Assembly (NCBI GenBank): GCA_001603105.1
Contig: LVBE01000085.1
Span: 1 to 42,785 of the forward strand
Length of the DNA: 42,785 nucleotides
Direction of reading: 5' to 3'
Source of the DNA: Spirochaetales bacterium Spiro_03
Lineage (GTDB): Bacteria; Spirochaetota; Spirochaetia; Sphaerochaetales; Sphaerochaetaceae
Shown here piece after piece: positions 3,074 to 41,514 of this stretch (the stretch's first letter is position 1; each line of letters opens with the position of its first letter). The notes below the pieces were generated by a model. It did no database searches. It was not told the DNA's origin and saw only the letters and a list, made by a program, of their open reading frames with translations. A program made the position numbers and the translations under genes.

Positions 3074-3349
3074 ATGGAGTACTTGACCATTGGGCAGGCC
3101 ATCAAGGCCTTGAGACAAGAGCGGGCGATGACCCAAGAGCACCTGATCGAGCAGGCGGACCTGAGCCGCAGCCAGCTCTACTACATCGAAAGCGGGAAAA
3201 AATCCCCCAGCCTTCCAACGATCTACGCGATCTGTTCGGCGCTGGGGGTCTCATTCTATGACCTGGTCTCAACGATGTACCGCCCCCCTCAGGGTTCGGG
3301 CACACCGAGCATCTCGTCGATCGGGGCTCCGGGGGCGACCATCGGATAG
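3074..3349 (+). CDS. XRE-family helix-turn-helix regulator
   Basis: GQAIKALRQERAMTQEHLIEQADLSRSQLYYIESGKKSPSLPTIYAICSALGVSFYDLV; internal ATG (MEYLTIG) preferred over the track start at 3026. Confidence 0.8.
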   Translation: MEYLTIGQAIKALRQERAMTQEHLIEQADLSRSQLYYIESGKKSPSLPTIYAICSALGVSFYDLVSTMYRPPQGSGTPSISSIGAPGATIG

Positions 3350-4965
3350 ACCTTGTCGTCCAACGGGATCTCGCAGTCGACCAGCACCGCCTCCCCAAGG
3401 GCCAGAGCTGAAGAGAGCACCGCCTTTGGATCGTCATCCTTGCCAAGGCGCATCCCCTTCACCCCGTAGGCAGCGGCGAGGGCGACCCAATCGATATAGG
3501 TATCAAGCGTCGTTTCACTGTAGTTGCCATCGAAGAAGAGGGTCTGCCACTGGCGTACCATCCCAAGCGTCTGGTTGTTCATCAACAGGATGATCACCGG
3601 AAGGCGATAGCGGGCGATGGTGGCAAGCTCATTGCAGTTCATTCTGAAGGAGCCGTCACCGGCTACGTTGACCACCCGGCTCTTCGGATTGCCTACCTGT
3701 GCCCCGATAGCCGCCCCGGTTCCGTAGCCCATCGTACCAAGCCCACCGCTGGTCAAAAAATGCCCCGGCTGCACGTGTTTGATGAACTGGGCCGCCCACA
3801 TCTGGTGTTGGCCTACCTCGGTGACGATGTAGAAGTTCTCAGGCAGCAGCGACTGCAGGGCCTTGAGGATCTCCTTGCTGCGGGCGCTCTCGTTGTCGAC
3901 CCTGATCGGATACCGACGCTTGTAGTCGGCGACCTGCTCCATCCAGCGCGCGTGGGAGAGCGGGCTCTTCAACTGTTCATTGAGAGATGAGAGGACGACC
4001 TTCACGTCGCCGACGACGTTGCAGTAGCTTTTGATGTTCTTGTCGATCTCAGCGGGATCGACATCGATGTGGATGATCTTGGCGTTCTTGGCAAATGAGG
4101 AGGCCTTGCTCACCACCCGGTCGCTGAAGCGCGCCCCGATGACTATCAAGAGGTCGCACGCCGAGACGAGCATGTTGCTGACCTTGGTGCCATGCATCCC
4201 CACCAGCCCGGTATACCGTTCATCGAGGCTGCTGATCGCCCCACAGCCCATCAGGGAGGTACAGGCAGGGCTATCGATGAGGTTGAGGAAGAGGGCAAGC
4301 TCCTCGCTCGCCTTCGCCCTGATGACGCCGCCTCCGACGTAGCACATCGGCCGCTCACTGCCCTTGATCAGGGCGAGGGCGGTCTCCAGGCTCTTGGTGC
4401 TGAGTCGATCGATGCGTGGTTTGACCTGCTCAATCTCGACTCGTTCATAGTCGGTGGTGTGGACGGTGATGTCCTTGGGCAGGTCGATGAGTACCGGCCC
4501 GGGCCTCCCCTCCTGGGCGATCTTGAAGGCTAGGCGCATCGTCTCGGCGAGCGTGGTGACATCCTTGACGATGAAGTTGTGCTTGGTGATCGGCATCGTG
4601 ATGCCGGTGATGTCGACCTCCTGAAAGCTATCCTTCCCAAGCAAAGGGACGGTCACATTGCCGGTAAGGGCGACCATCGGCACGCTGTCCATGTAGGCGG
4701 TGGCGATGCCGGTCACCAGGTTCGTCGCCCCCGGCCCACTGGTAGCCATACAGACGCCGACCTTGCCGGTCGAGCGTGCATAGCCATCGGCAGCGTGGGA
4801 TGCGCCCTGCTCGTGGCTGGTCAGGATGTGGCGGATCCGGTCCCGGTTCTGGTAGAGAGCGTCGTAGAGTGGCAGCACTGCACCTCCTGGAAACCCAAAG
4901 ACCGTATCGACTCCCTGTTCAACCAAACACTCTATGATGATCTGTGCTCCACTGATGTGCATCAT
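3289..4965 (-). CDS. ilvB: Acetolactate synthase large subunit
   Basis: ThDP enzyme: GFPGGAVLPLYDAL, HEQGASHAADGYARSTGKVGVCMATSGPGATNLVTGIA; RBS AAGGAGA precedes ATG at 4965. Confidence 0.95.
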   Translation of the reverse strand: MMHISGAQIIIECLVEQGVDTVFGFPGGAVLPLYDALYQNRDRIRHILTSHEQGASHAADGYARSTGKVGVCMATSGPGATNLVTGIATAYMDSVPMVALTGNVTVPLLGKDSFQEVDITGITMPITKHNFIVKDVTTLAETMRLAFKIAQEGRPGPVLIDLPKDITVHTTDYERVEIEQVKPRIDRLSTKSLETALALIKGSERPMCYVGGGVIRAKASEELALFLNLIDSPACTSLMGCGAISSLDERYTGLVGMHGTKVSNMLVSACDLLIVIGARFSDRVVSKASSFAKNAKIIHIDVDPAEIDKNIKSYCNVVGDVKVVLSSLNEQLKSPLSHARWMEQVADYKRRYPIRVDNESARSKEILKALQSLLPENFYIVTEVGQHQMWAAQFIKHVQPGHFLTSGGLGTMGYGTGAAIGAQVGNPKSRVVNVAGDGSFRMNCNELATIARYRLPVIILLMNNQTLGMVRQWQTLFFDGNYSETTLDTYIDWVALAAAYGVKGMRLGKDDDPKAVLSSALALGEAVLVDCEIPLDDKVYPMVAPGAPIDEMLGVPEP

Positions 4966-4975
4966 GGTCTCCTTC

Positions 4976-6670
4976 TTATCGATTCTCCACGATCGCTCCG
5001 CTGGCAGCGCTGGAGACTGCCCTGGCGTAGCGAGCGAGGTAGCCGTGTTCAATCTTGCTCTTCGGCGCCTTCCATGCCGCACGGCGCTTCTTCAGCGTCG
5101 CCTCATCGACGAGCAAGTCGATCGTCCGATTCGGGATATCGATGGTGATCAAATCCCCTTCTTCAACGAGGGCGATCGGCCCTCCTTCGGCGGCCTCGGG
5201 GCTGATGTGGCCGATCGAGGCACCACGGGTCGCTCCACTGAAGCGGCCGTCGGTGATCAGGGCGACATCCTTGTCGAGCCCCATACCGGCGATTGCGCTG
5301 GTGGGGGCGAGCATCTCTGGCATCCCCGGCCCTCCCTTCGGCCCCTCATAGCGAATCACAACCACATCCCCTGCCTTAATCGAGCCAGAGAAGATTGCCT
5401 CGTTGGCCTGATCCTCGCTTTCGAAGACCCGTGCCGGACCGGTGTGGACCAGCATTGCCTCATCGACGGCGCTCTGTTTGACCACCGCCCCATCGGGGGC
5501 GAGGTTGCCCCTCAGCACCGCGATCCCGCCGGTCTTCGAATAGGGGTCCGAAAGGGGGCGGATGACCGCTTGGTCGGTCACCGCCTTGTCCATGCACAGC
5601 TCTGCCACACTCTTGAGACTGACAGTGGGAAGGCTCGCATCGATGAGACCTGAGCGGGCTAGAAGTCCGAGCACCGCCTGGATGCCGCCTGCGTGGTGCA
5701 AGTCCTCGAGGTGGTGCTCCCCTGCAGGGGCGAGGTGGCAGAGGTTGGGGACCTTTGCACTGACCTCATTGGCCTCGAAGATATCGATGCTCACTCCTGC
5801 CTCATGGGCGATCGCCGGCAGGTGCAACATCGTATTGGTCGAGCAGCCCAAGGCCATGTCGACAGCCAGGGCGTTGGCGAAGGCAGCCTTGGTCATGATG
5901 TCCCGTGGCCGTACATTGGCGCGCAGCAGCTCCATGACCTGGTAGCCGGCCTCCTTGGCCAAGCGGATGCGGGCGCTGTAGACAGCCGGGATCGTCCCAT
6001 TGCCAGGCAGGCCCATCCCGATCGCCTCGGTGAGGCAGTTCATGCTATTGGCCGTGTACATGCCGCTGCACGATCCGCAGGTCGGGCAGGCGTTGTCCTC
6101 GTAGGCCAACAGCTGCTCGTCGCTGATCAGGCCAGCGCTGTGGGAGCCGACCTTCTCGAACATCACCGAGAGGTTGGTCTTGCACCCACCCTCTGAGTCC
6201 ATCGTGCCGGCGAGCATCGGCCCGCCGCTGACAAAGATCGAGGGGATGTTCAGCCGGGCGGCTGCCATGAGCATCCCCGGAACGATCTTGTCGCAGTTGG
6301 GGACGAAGACCAGGGCATCGAAGGGGTGTGCCATCGCCATGATCTCGATCGAATCGGCGATGATCTCGCGGCTGGGCAGGCTGTAGCGCATACCCAGATG
6401 TCCCATGGCGATGCCGTCACAGACCCCGATGACAGGGAAGGAGACCGGATTCCCTCCTGCCTGCCTCACCCCTGCCTTCACTGCATCGACGATTGTATCG
6501 AGGTGGATGTGGCCAGGAATGATCTCGTTGGCCCCACTTACAATGCCGATGATCGGCATGTGGATCTCCCGATCCGTCCAACCAAGCGCCTTCATCAGCG
6601 AGCGGTGGGGGCTGCGCTGCACCCCTTCGGTCATCGCACTCGATCGTCTCTTCATCTCATCCATATCCAC
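4976..6670 (-). CDS. ilvD: Dihydroxy-acid dehydratase
   Basis: [60 protein letters not shown]. Confidence 0.96.
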
Positions 6671-6681
6671 ACTCCTATCTC

Positions 6682-7743
6682 CTACAGGGCTTGGGCGATC
6701 CGCTGGCCCATCTCCTTGGTCCCGACCTTGATCATCGACTCTGAGTAGATATCAACGGTCCGATACCCTTGGTCGAGTACTGCTTCGATGGCCGCCTCCA
6801 CTGCCTGCGCCTCACCCTCCATGCCGAAGCTGTGGCGCAGCATCATCGCCACCGACAAGATCATGGCGATCGGGTTGGCCAAATCCTTGCCGGCGATGTC
6901 GGGAGCGCTGCCGTGGATCGGCTCATACATGCCAAACGAATCCTCCCTCAGGCTCGCTGAGGGCAACATCCCGATCGAGCCGGTGATCTGGCTCGCCTCA
7001 TCGCTGAGGATGTCACCGAACATGTTCTCGGTGACGATCACATCGAACTGGCGGGGATTGCGCACCAGCTGCATCGCCGCGTTGTCGACGTACAGGTGGG
7101 TCAGCTCAACATCGGGATACTCGGCGCACAGGGCGTTGGCCACCGCTCGCCACAGTTGGCTGGAGGAGAGGATGTTCGCCTTGTCGACGCTACACAGGCG
7201 CCGAGAGCGCTTCTGGGCGATCTCAAAGCCTTTGCGCAGGATCCGCTCAATCTCCGCCCGTGTATAGCTCATCGTATCGTATGCGCTCTCTTCATCACTG
7301 CCGCGTGCACCGAAGTAGATGCCGCCGGTGAGCTCACGCACCACCATGATGTCCAGCTGCTCACCGACGACCTCTGCCTTCAGGGGGCAGGCGCCGCTGA
7401 GCTGCTTGTACATGATCGCCGGCCTGAGGTTGCAGAAGAGGCCGAGCCCTCCTCTGAGGCCGAGCAGTCCCTTCTCCGGTCGCAGGTGCGACGGCAGCGT
7501 ATCCCACTTCGGTCCGCCGAGGGAGCCGAGCAGGACCGCATCACTGTCTTGACAGCCTTTGAGGGTACTGTCCGGCAGCGGGGTATTGTAGGCATCAAGG
7601 GCAGCTCCGCCTGCAAGGTACTCGACGATCTCAAAGTCGTGGCCAAAGCGCTCTGCCACCCGCTTGAGCACCTTCACCGCCTCGAAGGTGATATCCGGAC
7701 CGATCCCGTCTCCACTGATGACCGCGATGCGCTTCTTCATCAC
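6682..7743 (-). CDS. leuB: 3-isopropylmalate dehydrogenase
   Basis: [50 protein letters not shown]. Confidence 0.96.
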
Positions 7744-8234
7744 ACACCCTCCTTCTGTGCCATATAGGCAGCAAGGCCGCCTGCAGCGATGAGCTCTTGC
7801 ATGAAGGGCGGGAAGGGTTCGCTTTGAAAGACCTGGGAGGTGGTCATATTGGTGATCGTGCCACTGTCAAAGTCAACTTGGACGCGGTCCCCTGCCTTGA
7901 TGGAAGCCGCTGCCTCTTCGCACTCAAGGATCGGCAGGCCGATGTTGATCGCATTGCGATAGAAGATCCGGGCGAATGAGCGGGCGATGACGCAGCTGAC
8001 GCCGCTCTCCTTGATGGCGATGGGGGCGTGCTCGCGGCTGGAGCCACAGCCGAAGTTCCGGTCGGCGACAATGATGTCACCCTTCTGCACCGTTTTGACG
8101 AACTGGCTGTCGATATCCTCCATGCAGTGAGCGGCGAGCTCTGCGTGGTTGGCGGTATTGAGGTACCGCGCCGGAATGATGACGTCGGTGTCGACGTTGT
8201 CCCCGTATCTGAAAACACTTCCTTCTGCTACCAT
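7740..8234 (-). CDS. leuD: 3-isopropylmalate dehydratase small subunit
   Basis: [33 protein letters not shown]; start at internal ATG 8234. Confidence 0.95.
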
Positions 8235-8235
8235 G

Positions 8236-9504
8236 CTAGGCCTCCATGACGTTCTTGGGATCTGCGATATAGCCGGCCACGGCACTGGCGGCGGCTACCG
8301 AGGGGCTGGCGAGGTAGACCTCGCTTTTCGGGTGGCCCATACGTCCGACAAAGTTGCGGTTGGTGGTGCTCACCGCCCGCTCCCCTTCGGCGAGGATTCC
8401 CATGTGCCCACCCAGGCACGGTCCACAGGTAGGGGTCGAGACGGCACAGCCGGCATCGACGAAGATATCGAAGAGTCCCTCGGCCATCGCCTGCTTCCAG
8501 ATCTTCTGCGTCGCCGGGAAGATCAGGGCCCGCACATGGGAGGCAACCTTGCGGCCCTTGAGAATCTGGGCAGCCTGACGTAGATCGTCGATGCGTCCGT
8601 TGGTGCAGGAGCCGATGACGACCTGGTCGATCCGGATCTCGCCCACCTCATCGATGGTACGGGTATTGGAGGGCAGGTGTGGGAAGCTGACGGTGCTCTT
8701 GATCGTCGACAGGTCGATCTCATACGTCGCATCATATTCGGCGTCGCTGTCCGCCTCATAGATGCGCACCTCTTTCTTGTAGTGTTCGTCCAGGTAGGCG
8801 AGAGTCACCGCATCGACGGGGAAGATCCCGTTCTTCGCCCCTGCCTCGATGGCCATGTTGGCGACGGTGAAGCGGTCGTCGATAGAGAGGTTCGCCACCC
8901 CCTTGCCGGTGAACTCCATGCTCGCATACAGCGCTCCATCGACACCGATCATGCCGATGATGTGCAAAATGAGGTCCTTGCCGCTGACGTAGGGACCGAA
9001 CGCTCCGCTGAGGTTGAACCGTATCGCGCTGGGAACTTTGAACCACGCCGTGCCGCTGGCCATGCCTGCGGCCATGTCGGTGGAGCCGACACCGGTTGAG
9101 AAGGCGCCAAGCGCCCCGTAGGTGCAGGTGTGGCTATCGGCGCCGATGACCAGATCCCCGGCTCCGACGAGCCCCTGCTCTGGCAACAGGGCGTGCTCGA
9201 TGCCCATCTGTCCTACCTCAAAGTAGTTGGTGATCGCATGCTCGCGGGCAAAGGTACGCATCGCCTTCGCCTGTTCGGCCGCCTTGATGTCCTTGTTCGG
9301 AGTGAAGTGGTCGGGCACGAGGGCGACCTTCTCCTTGTCAAAGACCGTCTTCTTGCCAAACTTGGCAAACTCATTGATGGCTACCGGGGCGGTGATGTCG
9401 TTTCCGAGCACCAAATCCAGATCGGCCATGATCAACTGGCCGGCCCGCACGCTCTCAAGGCCTGCGTGCGCTGCCAGGATCTTCTGTGACATAGTCATTC
9501 CCAT
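8236..9504 (-). CDS. leuC: 3-isopropylmalate dehydratase large subunit
   Basis: aconitase family: [50 protein letters not shown]. Confidence 0.95.
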
Positions 9505-9519
9505 GGGGCAACTCCTCTC

Positions 9520-11112
9520 TCATTCATCGGACGGCTCGATGCCGTCGGCTATCAACTTATACTCGATGCTATCACTTAAGGCAAACCAGCTCGCCTCGAT
9601 GATGTCCCGGCTCACCCCGATCGTCGACCAGGTGTTGACCCCGTCGGTCGATTCGATGAGGACACGGACCTTGCTCGCCGTAGCTCCTGCGCTGTCCAGC
9701 ACCCGCACCTTGTAGTCGGTCAGGTGTACGCTCTTCAGACTCGGGTAGAACTGCTCCAATACCTTGCGCAGCGCCTTGTCCAGTGCGTTGACCGGCCCCT
9801 CTCCCTCAGCGGCGGTGATGGCGCTCTCTCCGGCGACCTTGACCTTGACCACCACGGCGTGGCTGGCATCGCTGAGCAAGTCGACATACGGGCTCGATCC
9901 GATGGTCTGGTAGTGCACAAGGCTGAAGTACGGCTTGTACATGTTCAGGTGTCGACGGATGACCAGGTCAAAGGAGGATTCAGCACCCTCGAACTGGTAG
10001 CCCTCAGCCTCAAGGCGCTTGAGCTCATCCATCAGGCTGACGGTCACCGGGTCATCCTTGTCCAGGTGCGGGGCGACGCGGGCGATGCGCTTGAGCATCA
10101 AGGCGCGCCCGGCGACTTCGCTCATCAATAGCCGCCGTTCATTGCCGACCGTCGCCGGATCGATATGTTCGAACGAGTGGGGATTCTTCTGCACCCCATC
10201 GATGTGCATCCCGCCCTTGTGGGCAAAGGCGCTGCGCCCGACAAATGGGGTGCGCCCGCTGATGCGCACATTGCTGATCTCAGCGACCTTGCGGCTGATG
10301 CGCGTCAACTGCTCCAAGTTTTCGCCATTGAGGCAGCGTATGCCCATCTTCGTCTCAAGGATTGCGATGATCGAACTGAGGTTGGCGTTGCCGCAGCGCT
10401 CTCCGAAGCCGAGCAGCGTCCCCTGCACCTGTGTCGCCCCACCCTCGATCGCCGCGATCGAGGAGGCGACGCCGCAGCCGATGTCGTCGTGGGCATGCAC
10501 CCCGATCTCGACGGAGGGAAAGCGCCTCTTCGTCTCTTCGGTGATCGCCCGTACCCGGCTCGGGAGCATCCCCCCCCTCGTCTCACAGAGGATCAGGGCA
10601 GAAGCGCCACCTCTCAATGCCGCCTCAAGTGTCTTGAGGGCGTAGTCAGCGTTTGCCTCGTAGCCATCGTAGTAGTGCTCGGCATCGAAGAAGACTGCGC
10701 TGCCACCTTGTGTGATGAAGCGCACCGAATCCTCGATCATCGCCAAGTTCTCCTCAAGCGTCGTCTTGATGATGTCGGTGACGTGAAAGTCCCAGCTCTT
10801 GCCGAAGATCGATACGACCTTCGTTTGGGCCTTGGTGAGGCTGATGAGGTTGGCGTCCTCGCTCGCCTCGATCCCTTTGCGCCGTGTCGAGCCGAAGGCT
10901 ACGATCGTAGCGTGCTTCAGCTCTAGGCGCTTGGCCTCCTCGAAGAACTCAAGGTCCTTGGGGTTTGAGCCCGGGTTTCCGGCCTCGATGTAGGAGATGC
11001 CCAGACTATCGAGGCTCTGGACGATCTTCAGCTTGTCGGAGACCGAGAAGCTGATACCCTCGCCCTGGCTGCCATCGCGCAGTGTTGAGTCAAAGATCGC
11101 GACCCTAGCCAT
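9520..11112 (-). CDS. cimA: (R)-citramalate synthase
   Basis: FDSTLRDGSQGEGISFSVSDKLKI, long HMGL-like plus LeuA dimer domain; start ATG at 11112. Confidence 0.88.
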   Translation of the reverse strand: MARVAIFDSTLRDGSQGEGISFSVSDKLKIVQSLDSLGISYIEAGNPGSNPKDLEFFEEAKRLELKHATIVAFGSTRRKGIEASEDANLISLTKAQTKVVSIFGKSWDFHVTDIIKTTLEENLAMIEDSVRFITQGGSAVFFDAEHYYDGYEANADYALKTLEAALRGGASALILCETRGGMLPSRVRAITEETKRRFPSVEIGVHAHDDIGCGVASSIAAIEGGATQVQGTLLGFGERCGNANLSSIIAILETKMGIRCLNGENLEQLTRISRKVAEISNVRISGRTPFVGRSAFAHKGGMHIDGVQKNPHSFEHIDPATVGNERRLLMSEVAGRALMLKRIARVAPHLDKDDPVTVSLMDELKRLEAEGYQFEGAESSFDLVIRRHLNMYKPYFSLVHYQTIGSSPYVDLLSDASHAVVVKVKVAGESAITAAEGEGPVNALDKALRKVLEQFYPSLKSVHLTDYKVRVLDSAGATASKVRVLIESTDGVNTWSTIGVSRDIIEASWFALSDSIEYKLIADGIEPSDE

Positions 11113-12724
11113 CGATGGCCTCCTTCTTCTTGTCGGAGTGGGAACTGAGCATGTCATTTGCAAAATTCGGAGCCGATGTCGGTTTCACTGAACCGCTACG
11201 GGAGAGCGAGGCCTCGTCGAGCATCCGGTTCACAGCGGCAAGGCAGCTGAGGATCGAGGCTTCGATGACATCGGTCGACACACCCCGGCCACGGTAGATG
11301 CCGTGCCCGTCGCTGATCTTCACAAAGACCTCTCCGAGTGCGTCGCGATGCTCGGTCACCGCCTGCAGTGTGTAATCCTCCAAGCTGAAGGGGTGGCGGA
11401 TGATCTTCTCCACTGCCCTGAGGCTTGCGTAGACCGGCCCGGTGCCACGCGCGACCTCCTGGTACTTCTTATCGCCCTTGCGCAGCGTCACGCACGCGGT
11501 CGAGGTCATCAGGTTGCCGCTGTTGACGACGAAGTTGTCCAGCTCCCAAACCACCGGGGAGGTTTGGGTGGTGCTCTCCACCAAGGCGATGAGGTCGCGG
11601 TCGCCGACGGTTTTCTTGCGGTCAGCGAGGTTCTTGAACTCAGCAAAGAGGCTCTTCACCTCCTCCTTGGTCAGTGTGTAGCCAAGCTCGACAAGCCGCT
11701 TCTCAAAGGCGTGCATCCCGCTATGCTTGCCCAGCACGAAGCTGGTGGTCATCACCCCAACACTCTCGGGGGTCATGATCTCATAGGTGAGGCTGTTGGC
11801 CATCATGCCGTGCTGGTGGATCCCACTCTCATGGGCGAAGGCGTTCGCTCCGACGATCGCCTTGCTCGGATTGGCCTTGATGCCGGTGATCTGGCCCAAG
11901 AGCCGGGCACTTTTGGTGATCTCCTCGGTCTTCAGCGCATAGGTAAAGGGCAGTTCGTCGCTTCGGGTCCGGATGGCCATCGCCACCTCCTCGATAGCGG
12001 CGTTGCCTGCCCGCTCTCCGATGCCGCAGAGCGTGCCCTCGATCTGCCGAGCTCCGGCTTTCAGCCCGGCGAGGCTGTTGGCCACCGCAAGGCCCAAGTC
12101 GTTGTGACAGTGCACCGCGATGATCGCCCGGTCGATGTTCGCCACCCGCTTCATCACCGTCCCCACCATCCGCTTCATGTCCTCAGGCAGGGCGTAGCCG
12201 ACGGTATCGGGCAGGTTGACGACACTCGCCCCCGCGTCGATGACTGCCTCAACCACCTCACAGAGGAAGTCCAAGTCGGTTCGGGTGGCATCCTCTGCCG
12301 AGAACTCCACCTCACCGCAGAGATTGCGCGCATAGCGCACCATCTCTGTCGCTTGCATAAGCGCCTGCGACCGGCTCATCTTCAGCTTATACTGCAAGTG
12401 TAGGTCACTGGTGGCCAAAAAGGTGTGGATCCGAGGGCGCTTGGCTCCCTTCACCGCTTGCCATGCTGCGTCAATGTCCTTCTTCAGCGCCCGTGAGAGG
12501 CTGGCCACCGCCGTCTCCTTCAGGATAGCGGCAATGGCCTGGACGGAGGAGAAATCCCCCTCAGATGCTATGGCAAAGCCTGCCTCCAGCACATCCACGC
12601 CGAGGGCTTCAAGCTGTAGGGCCATGCGAACTTTCTCATCGAGGTTCATTGAGTAGCCCGGTGCCTGCTCGCCATCACGCAGCGTGGTGTCAAAGATGTA
12701 GATCCTGTTCTCTTCCATAGTCAT
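11105..12724 (-). CDS. leuA: 2-isopropylmalate synthase
   Basis: IYIFDTTLRDGEQAPGYSMNLDEKV, HCHNDLGLAVANSLAGLKAGARQIEGTLCGIGERAGN, C-terminal regulatory domain. Confidence 0.94.
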   Translation of the reverse strand: MTMEENRIYIFDTTLRDGEQAPGYSMNLDEKVRMALQLEALGVDVLEAGFAIASEGDFSSVQAIAAILKETAVASLSRALKKDIDAAWQAVKGAKRPRIHTFLATSDLHLQYKLKMSRSQALMQATEMVRYARNLCGEVEFSAEDATRTDLDFLCEVVEAVIDAGASVVNLPDTVGYALPEDMKRMVGTVMKRVANIDRAIIAVHCHNDLGLAVANSLAGLKAGARQIEGTLCGIGERAGNAAIEEVAMAIRTRSDELPFTYALKTEEITKSARLLGQITGIKANPSKAIVGANAFAHESGIHQHGMMANSLTYEIMTPESVGVMTTSFVLGKHSGMHAFEKRLVELGYTLTKEEVKSLFAEFKNLADRKKTVGDRDLIALVESTTQTSPVVWELDNFVVNSGNLMTSTACVTLRKGDKKYQEVARGTGPVYASLRAVEKIIRHPFSLEDYTLQAVTEHRDALGEVFVKISDGHGIYRGRGVSTDVIEASILSCLAAVNRMLDEASLSRSGSVKPTSAPNFANDMLSSHSDKKKEAIDG

Positions 12725-12738
12725 CCCCCCATCGGTGG

Positions 12739-14297
<1,559 letters not shown>

Positions 14298-14333
14298 CGT
14301 AATTGTCCGCTCCTTTGGGTATAAGAATAAGAA

Positions 14334-14347
14334 CCCCGGTATCGGGG
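14334..14347 (-). terminator. Candidate attenuator terminator stem CCCCG-ATAC-CGGGG followed by TTCTTATTCTTAT
   Basis: Read on minus strand; 5-bp GC stem then U-rich tract, about 35 nt upstream of ilvN. Confidence 0.5.
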
Positions 14348-14355
14348 AACTTGTA

Positions 14356-14387
14356 CCACGGCCCATGTAGGTATACTACAGCCGTGG
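14356..14387 (-). promoter_or_regulatory. Leader hairpin CCACGGC-TGTAG-TATAC-CTACA-(TGG)-GCCGTGG abutting the leader stop codon
   Basis: 7 bp + 5 bp stem with 3-nt bulge on minus strand; starts at the base after the leader TGA. Confidence 0.65.
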
Positions 14388-14504
14388 TCAGAGAATAATT
14401 AGAATAAGAAGGCTAAGTAGGCAGGAAAGCAGGATTGAGGATGCCGAGGTGATGATCCCTCTGGTCTCTGGTGTCTCTGTGGTGTAGGTGCTGGGCGCTC
14501 TCAC
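14388..14504 (-). CDS. BCAA operon leader peptide VRAPSTYTTETPETRGIITSASSILLSCLLSLLILIIL (38 codons, GTG start)
   Basis: Read by hand: GAGGAG RBS 6 nt before GTG; 12 of last 15 residues are Leu/Ile; TGA stop; too short for the ORF track. Confidence 0.8.
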   Translation of the reverse strand: MRAPSTYTTETPETRGIITSASSILLSCLLSLLILIIL

Positions 14505-14541
14505 AGTGCTCTCCTCAAGACGGTTCGACGACCGTTTCCTG

Positions 14542-14571
14542 TTTTTAGCCCTCTTTTACCCCTGTTGTCAA
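14542..14571 (-). promoter_or_regulatory. Candidate promoter of the BCAA operon: TTGACA-N18-TAAAAA
   Basis: Perfect -35 (14566-14571), weaker -10 (14542-14547), upstream of the leader peptide. Confidence 0.55.
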
Positions 14572-39705: not shown

Positions 39706-39778
39706 TCGGGCAGAGAGGATTTGAACCTCCGACCCCTTGGTCCCGAACCAAGTGCGCTAGCCCCTGCGCTACTGCCCG
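39706..39778 (-). tRNA. tRNA-Pro, anticodon CGG
   Basis: Acceptor CGGGCAG/CTGCCCG, anticodon stem CTTGG-TTCGGGA-CCAAG, T-arm GGAGG-TTCAAAT-CCTCT; 73 nt, CCA not encoded. Confidence 0.95.
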
Positions 39779-39939
39779 GCTTTGTCACAGCCGCTGTCAA
39801 ATATATCGGCAGGCTTTGGGAATGTCAAGCAAGCCCGGAAGAGGAGGTTCGCCTCTTCATTGACAGCAGTGGGGACAAATGCTATTTTTCTGAAGACTGT
39901 CCGCACCGCGGGCCACGTACAGAGAGAAAGAGGTTTACC

Positions 39940-41514
39940 ATGTCCGACAATGACACCACAGAGGATAAGAAACAGGAAGAAGATACCAAGGTACTCTCCT
40001 TTGAGAAGCCGAAGCAGAGCGGCGCTGGCAAAGTAGCCAAGAAAGAAGCCGTTGCAAAGCCGAAGCAGAAGATAACCCTTGGCTGGGCATTGGGCATGCT
40101 GATCCTCATCCTGATCGCCATCTCCTTCGTCGCCGCCCCTGCCATCGAGGCATTTGTCGGAAAGCGAAGCTCATCATCACTGGTCTTCGGAAAGTACGGC
40201 AAGGAGAACATCGCCTACGCATACGGCAACCACTTCTACGACCAGGTACAGAACTACGCTGACCAATACAAGAGCAGTGGCTCGGACCCGACCCAAGTGC
40301 TCTACCAGATCTGGAAGGGCGCCTATGACTCTACGGTGATCTATACCGCTGTCAACCAACTGGCGAAGAAGGCAGGCATCATCGCCAGTGACGAAGCGGT
40401 TCGGCGGGCCATCATCAACAGCGGCGTCTACCACAAAGATGGCAAGTTCGACGTCGCAACCTATCAGAAGGCGTCTAGCGATGCCAAGAGCCGGCTGGAG
40501 ACCCAGATCAGACGTTCGTTCCCCTACCAGATTGTTGTCGATGACATCGGCAGCGTCCTCTCTTCAAAGGGTGAGGCTGACTATGTCGCATCGCTGGCCC
40601 AGACAGGACGCTCCTTCAACTACGTCGTCGTCGACCCGAGCCACTTCCCCGATGAGAGTGCCGTCCGCTACGCCCTTGAGCACGAGCAGCTCTTCACCAC
40701 CCTCGATGTCTCCATCATCTCAGTGACTGATGAGAACCTCGCTCGCTCCCTCTCCAAGGACATCCTGCTTGGCACTACCACCTTCGAAGAGGCGGCAGAG
40801 CAGCACAGCCTGGACTCCTTTGCTGCGAACGGAGGGGCTGTCGGCAAGCTCTTCTACTACGCCATTGAGCCGAACTTCACCTCCGTCGACGATGCAGCGC
40901 TACTCTTGAATGCCAAGGATGGAGATCTGCTCGGCCCCTTTGAGAGCCAGGGTGCATGGACGCTGTGGCGGATCAACCGTCGAGCAAGTCAAGCTGACTT
41001 CACCGACGAAGCGACCCTCAACGGCATCAAGGCATACATCGCCACCAACGAGGCGGCTATGATCGAGCCGTGGCTTGAGCAGTATGCCCAGGACCTGAAG
41101 CGGGCAGCGGATGCATCAAGCCTTGAAGAGGCCGCCCTTGACCGGGACCTCGAGGTGGTCACTGTCTCCTCGACACCGTACAACAGAGCCAAGTCCACCT
41201 ATATGGCTGACCTCTCCTATACCGACCCGATGGGCTACCTCAACCAGGCAGCCTCCCAGGCAGAGGTTGCTTCCTCCCTCTACAAGAGCGGGGAACACAC
41301 CCTGCTCGATCCGATCAAGGTCGGCACCTCCCTGATCATCGTCGAAACTGGAAGCGATGAGACCGATGAGGGTATGGGTAGCTATATCACCATGTTCTAC
41401 GACTACCTCAGCGGCAGTCAGAACCAGCAGGACTTCTCCCAGGCCCTGTACACCTCACCTGTTCACAAGAACGACTTCTTATCCACCTTCTTCAGTGTCG
41501 TCCTCGGCCAGTGA
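39940..41514 (+). CDS. Membrane-anchored SurA/PpiD-like periplasmic chaperone
   Basis: Lys-rich N-term, single TM, SurA_N-like region and parvulin-like region; ATG 39940 after GAGAAAGAGG. Confidence 0.75.
   Translation: MSDNDTTEDKKQEEDTKVLSFEKPKQSGAGKVAKKEAVAKPKQKITLGWALGMLILILIAISFVAAPAIEAFVGKRSSSSLVFGKYGKENIAYAYGNHFYDQVQNYADQYKSSGSDPTQVLYQIWKGAYDSTVIYTAVNQLAKKAGIIASDEAVRRAIINSGVYHKDGKFDVATYQKASSDAKSRLETQIRRSFPYQIVVDDIGSVLSSKGEADYVASLAQTGRSFNYVVVDPSHFPDESAVRYALEHEQLFTTLDVSIISVTDENLARSLSKDILLGTTTFEEAAEQHSLDSFAANGGAVGKLFYYAIEPNFTSVDDAALLLNAKDGDLLGPFESQGAWTLWRINRRASQADFTDEATLNGIKAYIATNEAAMIEPWLEQYAQDLKRAADASSLEEAALDRDLEVVTVSSTPYNRAKSTYMADLSYTDPMGYLNQAASQAEVASSLYKSGEHTLLDPIKVGTSLIIVETGSDETDEGMGSYITMFYDYLSGSQNQQDFSQALYTSPVHKNDFLSTFFSVVLGQ

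Follow-up and report, generated by a model that had tools for sequence, protein, structure and literature searches.

A probable Leu/Ile-sensing leader peptide upstream of the ilvN operon in a Sphaerochaeta-like spirochaete and its relatives

The stretch of DNA analysed here, referred to as the window, comprises 42,785 nt of Spirochaetales bacterium Spiro_03 (contig LVBE01000085.1) and carries on its minus strand an operon in the order ilvN-ilvC-leuA-cimA-leuC-leuD-leuB-ilvD-ilvB, which is the full gene set for Leu, Ile and Val:

13770 to 14297, minus strand: ilvN, acetolactate synthase small subunit, first gene of the operon (NF008864)
12739 to 13737, minus strand: ilvC (TIGR00465)
11105 to 12724, minus strand: leuA, 2-isopropylmalate synthase (TIGR00973)
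9520 to 11115, minus strand: cimA, citramalate synthase (TIGR00977)
8236 to 9495, minus strand: leuC (TIGR02083)
7740 to 8237, minus strand: leuD (TIGR02084)
6682 to 7743, minus strand: leuB (TIGR00169)
4976 to 6664, minus strand: ilvD (TIGR00110)
3289 to 4965, minus strand: ilvB, acetolactate synthase large subunit (TIGR00118)

The start of ilvN was fixed by its relatives, which place it at 14297; the ATG at 14366, which would give the longest ilvN ORF and lies inside the hairpin P1, was ruled out. Upstream of ilvN lie the following features:

14566 to 14571, minus strand: -35 element TTGACA, within GGGTTGACA, identical in 13 of 13 same-genus loci compared
14542 to 14547, minus strand: -10-like TAAAAA after an 18-nt spacer, read off the same-genus loci (TACAAA, TACAAC or TAAAAA in relatives)
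14520 to 14535, minus strand: small 5′ hairpin ACGGT-cgtcga-ACCGT before the leader Shine-Dalgarno (SD) sequence, read by eye
14511 to 14516, minus strand: SD sequence GAGGAG of the leader
14388 to 14504, minus strand: leader peptide ORF of 38 aa with a Leu/Ile run over its final 15 codons, mostly CTT, CTA and ATT
14356 to 14387, minus strand: hairpin P1 (regions 2:3), CCACGGCTGTAG...CTACATGGGCCGTGG, -16.0 kcal/mol, starting directly 3′ of the stop codon
14334 to 14347, minus strand: hairpin P2, CCCCG-ATAC-CGGGG, a candidate weak terminator stem
14331 to 14364, minus strand: possible alternative 3:4 hairpin, which excludes P1, -12.1 kcal/mol
14321 to 14333, minus strand: T-rich tract TTCTTATTCTTAT, 3′ of P2

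An initial annotation, made from the sequence alone, had described a GAGGAG-N6-GTG start and a short peptide between a TTGACA promoter and ilvN. Reading the minus strand from 14504 to 14388 gave the same start and the same peptide, VRAPSTYTTETPETRGIITSASSILLSCLLSLLILIIL-stop, with TTGACA at 14571 to 14566 and the ilvN start downstream, and the composition agrees as well (8 Leu and 6 Ile, Leu/Ile at 12 of the final 15 residues, and no Val codons except the GTG start). The window contains 622 ORFs of 20 aa or more, and this is the only one with at least 10 Leu/Ile in its last 15 residues, so its composition is not a matter of chance. Within its last ten codons, 8 of 9 Leu/Ile codons are CTT, CTA or ATT, and the amino acids encoded match the products of the operon. 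To this earlier description our analysis adds P1 at the stop codon, P2 with its T-rich tail, a rare-codon bias and a conserved promoter-like element.

Among the same-genus loci compared, the promoter-like element, GGGTTGACA-N18-TA(A/C)AA, keeps a fixed position 5′ of the leader SD, although its -10-like TAAAAA is a weak match to TATAAT and the consensus scan did not pick it out. Transcription starting downstream of 14504 had been named in advance as an argument against a leader; the one promoter-like element that is conserved stands 5′ of the ORF, and its position points to a likely start near 14536. At the small 5′ hairpin before the leader SD, most relatives differ in sequence and pair similarly, as judged by eye only and not by statistics. 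Another small hairpin, GGTGC...GCACC, was seen by eye early in long leaders, at the N-terminus of the L003 leader and in its relatives, with GGTGTT...AACACC or GGTGA...TCACC elsewhere and apparently compensatory changes.

To follow the leader through the family, ilvN was located in 94 of 139 genomes and the upstream DNA examined for about 90. A Leu/Ile/Val-rich ORF ending about 75-140 nt 5′ of ilvN occurs in 11 genera of the family (g1, g4, g5, g11, g36, g39, g40, g41, g42, g43 and g45) and, at the same place, in one locus of another spirochaete family (L026); the 88 loci with a leader ORF that were tabulated are not all independent. A single locus of the family, L097, lacks a leader before ilvN; at L054 the frame picker, which selects for Leu/Ile/Val richness, took the wrong ORF, the leader being recognisable further along, and L050 is not among the parsed loci. 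The conservation upstream of ilvN that the initial annotation had called for is thus found across the family, with one amendment: the Leu/Ile run is real, but relatives use Val codons too, which makes Leu/Ile/Val the signal. Searching with a model of the element under strict filters recovered a single copy per genome, every time before ilvN. The closest named ilvN records belong to an uncultured Spirochaetales (95% in ilvN) and a Sphaerochaeta sp. (78%), and the genus of the window is therefore Sphaerochaeta or close to it.

Reading frame and codon choice point to selection on the codons of these leaders. In 84 distinct leaders, Leu, Ile and Val make up 68% of the last 15 codons in frame versus 25% and 14% when the two other frames are read; the in-frame value is inflated by the choice of the most Leu/Ile/Val-rich frame upstream of ilvN as the leader frame. 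Independent of that choice is the adjacency of stop codon and P1, whose arm lies no more than 10 nt from the leader stop in 78 of the 84. The leaders favour codons that the window's operon avoids (CTA, CTT, ATT and GTA): CTA stands at 0.28 in leaders versus 0.03 in the operon, ATT at 0.68 versus 0.07 and GTA at 0.48 versus 0.07, while CTG stands at 0.03 in leaders versus 0.35 in the operon, the leader values coming from a pool of species that differ in composition and the operon values from the window alone. The peptide itself drifts between relatives, with Leu, Ile and Val interchanging. That the ORF is instead a gene for a small membrane protein would fit its hydrophobic tail, long enough for a membrane span, and the 55-84 aa reached in some relatives; we regard this as highly improbable given an ORF length that ranges from 17 to 84 aa, the interchange of Leu, Ile and Val, the favoured rare codons, the stop codon adjoining P1 and the one copy of the element per genome, before ilvN.

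The P1 helix, CCACGG...CCGTGG, begins at the leader stop codon and is strongly constrained in the window's genus. In a set of 17 distinct sequences from the genus, all cells (100%) of the 11 counted pairs are paired, the outer helix is invariant and double changes occur in 4 of 4 inner pairs; the covariation score was matched by 0 of 500 shuffles, and slid controls were 28-40% paired. Folding with a ribosome placed on the leader, computed as thermodynamic ensembles in which kinetics and pausing have no part, took the probability of P1 in this genus from 1.00 to 0.00 as the ribosome moved from 3-8 codons upstream to the stop codon.

We propose that the ORF is very probably a translated leader that senses Leu and Ile (in relatives Val as well) and that the operon is under ribosome-mediated attenuation. 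Comparison of the sequences establishes a conserved leader, frame, rare codons and P1, and in sister genera a competition between P1 and a terminator; translation, stalling and termination are steps that we infer. The signal for the ilvN-ilvC-leuA-cimA-leuCDB-ilvD-ilvB operon would be charged Leu and Ile tRNA, with Val tRNA also read in relatives. When these amino acids are plentiful, the ribosome would reach the stop codon and cover the 5′ arm of P1, P1 would not form and the transcript would end before ilvN. Under Leu/Ile shortage, it would stall a few codons upstream on the rare CTA, CTT or ATT codons, allowing P1 to form and the operon to be expressed.

The competition is most clearly seen in two sister genera, g11 and g39, where an arm CCCGTGG(T) pairs either with CCACGG after the stop codon (2:3) or with a later CCACGGG-like arm that has T-runs after it (3:4). 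Their 3:4 helix has 88.9% of cells paired versus 37-49% for slid versions, and before region 4 is made, 2:3 has a predicted probability of 1.00 when the ribosome stands 3-8 codons before the stop, but of 0.00-0.19 once it is at the stop. The two pairings are mutually exclusive and 3:4 carries a U-tract; RNAalifold, applied to this classical set, recovered the terminator alone because 2:3 and 3:4 exclude each other. On every feature that can be tested in sequence, g11 and g39 have classical ilv/leu-type attenuators. In g5, g36, g42 and g45 the 3:4 pairing is visible, but no U-tract lies directly 3′ of it.

The window's own genus departs from this layout, and for the window's species the proposal is least secure at the step that leads from P1 to output. 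An alternative 3:4 hairpin can be drawn between region 3 (GGGCCGTGGTA, 14364 to 14354) and region 4 (TACCGGGGTTC, 14341 to 14331), and folded alone it is about as stable as P2 (-12.1 versus -11.2 kcal/mol). In the thermodynamic ensembles for the window and its genus, however, P2 has a probability of about 1.00 in every ribosome state and the 3:4 alternative of about 0, so that a terminator and an antiterminator that exclude each other were not found in the window's species. The P2 region has a 5-bp stem with a TTCTTATTCT tail, and 2 terminator-like sites were counted against 0.7 expected. Within the genus, the T-rich tract is kept only by the window, its sister L002 and the pair L021/L022, and most other same-genus loci carry GGGGAGCAATCGCTTATACCC in its place. 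The pair adjoining CCCC/GGGG in P2 is G-C, A-U or U-A depending on the species, as read by eye where MAFFT misaligns the P2 arms. Just 3′ of P2, TATACCC or TATATCC (14323 to 14317 in the window) is conserved in same-genus and g41 loci where the U-tract is not, and no pairing partner or function was found for this motif. In the window's genus, P1 is thus kept while the terminator no longer shares the P1 arm, with classical termination there no more than a candidate. Of the ribosome-mediated attenuation that the initial annotation had proposed, the leader and its sensing are well supported and the sister genera are classical, whereas the exclusion between terminator and antiterminator fails in the window's genus; because of this failure, the window's own version is best called, on present sequence comparisons, a variant of ribosome-mediated attenuation.

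Granted the leader and its sensing, the output in the window's species most likely, and we think probably, comes from a leaky intrinsic terminator, either P2 or the 3:4 alternative, each with the T-rich tract behind it. The same leader and sensing could also act in this genus through Rho, where a finished leader would expose C-rich unstructured RNA to Rho and a stalled ribosome would shield it. Leaders without a U-tract are indeed longer (median 67 aa, n=28, versus 23 aa with a U-tract, n=60; Mann-Whitney p=3e-11, relatedness not corrected for) and the leader RNA is C-rich and G-poor, but C minus G is the same in leaders with and without a U-tract (p=0.97), and we consider a Rho-dependent output rather unlikely. 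Less probable still is translational attenuation, in which the control codons of the leader would pair with the SD region of ilvN and a stalled ribosome would free the SD. Free folds of several same-genus loci pair leader CTCCT...CGTAGTAAGC with GCTTATAC...TACGAAGGAG, and in L005 this pairing reaches p=0.027; overall it is not stronger than a synonymous-codon null (p 0.03-0.92 in the genus, 0.90 in the window). With intrinsic termination as our preferred output for the window's species, we raise tentatively, as a possibility that we would not call likely, that in the Sphaerochaeta-like genus as a whole selection maintained leader and P1, the classical terminator disappeared and output shifted to Rho or to translation; the longer leaders would then record this shift, and the sister genera would show the ancestral state. 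The family in any case forms a natural series that starts with a textbook attenuator and ends in a form whose terminator arm is not shared, which makes the change in output directly testable.

Known leader, T-box and riboswitch families in Rfam gave no match at gathering score for the window's leader and 19 relatives, and two weak matches at relaxed thresholds were unrelated. In the enterobacterial leu, ilvGMEDA and ilvBN attenuators, a leader with Leu/Ile/Val codons is followed by an antiterminator hairpin near the leader stop and by a terminator with a U-tract. Leader and hairpin have their counterparts here and the sister genera share the terminator with U-tract, whereas in the window's genus the terminator is weak or absent and has no arm in common with the antiterminator; the sequences themselves showed no relation to the enterobacterial ones. 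Like the leaders described here, the leu leader of S. typhimurium has the rare Leu codon CUA among its control codons, where it sharpens the response (PMC1183508). The experimentally tested uORF attenuator of Corynebacterium ilvB, the ilvB-II motif (PMC10272879, PMC11857589, PMC11109978), likewise places a uORF with Leu/Ile/Val codons before acetolactate synthase genes and has a terminator and antiterminator, but it belongs to a different phylum and differs in sequence and in the order of its genes. A hairpin upstream, compatible with the terminator, has been termed an anti-antiterminator in that system (PMC11857589). Leader peptides of Actinobacteria cys operons, which have a codon run near the stop and no clear terminator and for which Rho was suggested (PMC1262725), resemble the window's genus in combining such a run with no conserved terminator, but use cysteine codons and have no reported P1-like hairpin.

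Leader peptides were stated in 2010 to be known only in Proteobacteria and Actinobacteria, to which that paper itself added Firmicutes (PMC2965389). For spirochaetes, no description of a leader-peptide attenuator was found in the open-access literature, most subscription journals lying outside the search, and the initial annotation's statement that it knew of no described case in this kind of spirochaete stands within that range; the present loci would place ribosome-mediated control of branched-chain amino acid genes in this phylum. A conserved RNA before a spirochaete branched-chain amino acid gene has been reported in Leptospira, where the ilvB motif WRC-14-1 (7 representatives) was rated a weak riboswitch candidate with no leader peptide reported (PMC8632094); the likeness to our loci is drawn from its description.

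In several other families of the class, ilvB immediately precedes ilvN with no leader between them, and most of these also showed none before ilvB, as was the case in many other spirochaete families examined. Exceptions are L110, from another spirochaete family, with the leader MNKVPYTSSDFTSSNTGAISIIILVLIIILGGLV before ilvB and a terminator CCGTCC...GGACGG-T9 (L110:400-600), and L162, L167, L170 and L171, from other spirochaete families, with Leu/Ile/Val-rich leaders and strong intrinsic terminators directly before ilvB. They have the appearance of independent cases of this type of control. Elsewhere in the window, a mechanically called ORF (39721 to 41514, plus strand) overlaps with its 5′ end a tRNA gene on the minus strand (39706 to 39778).
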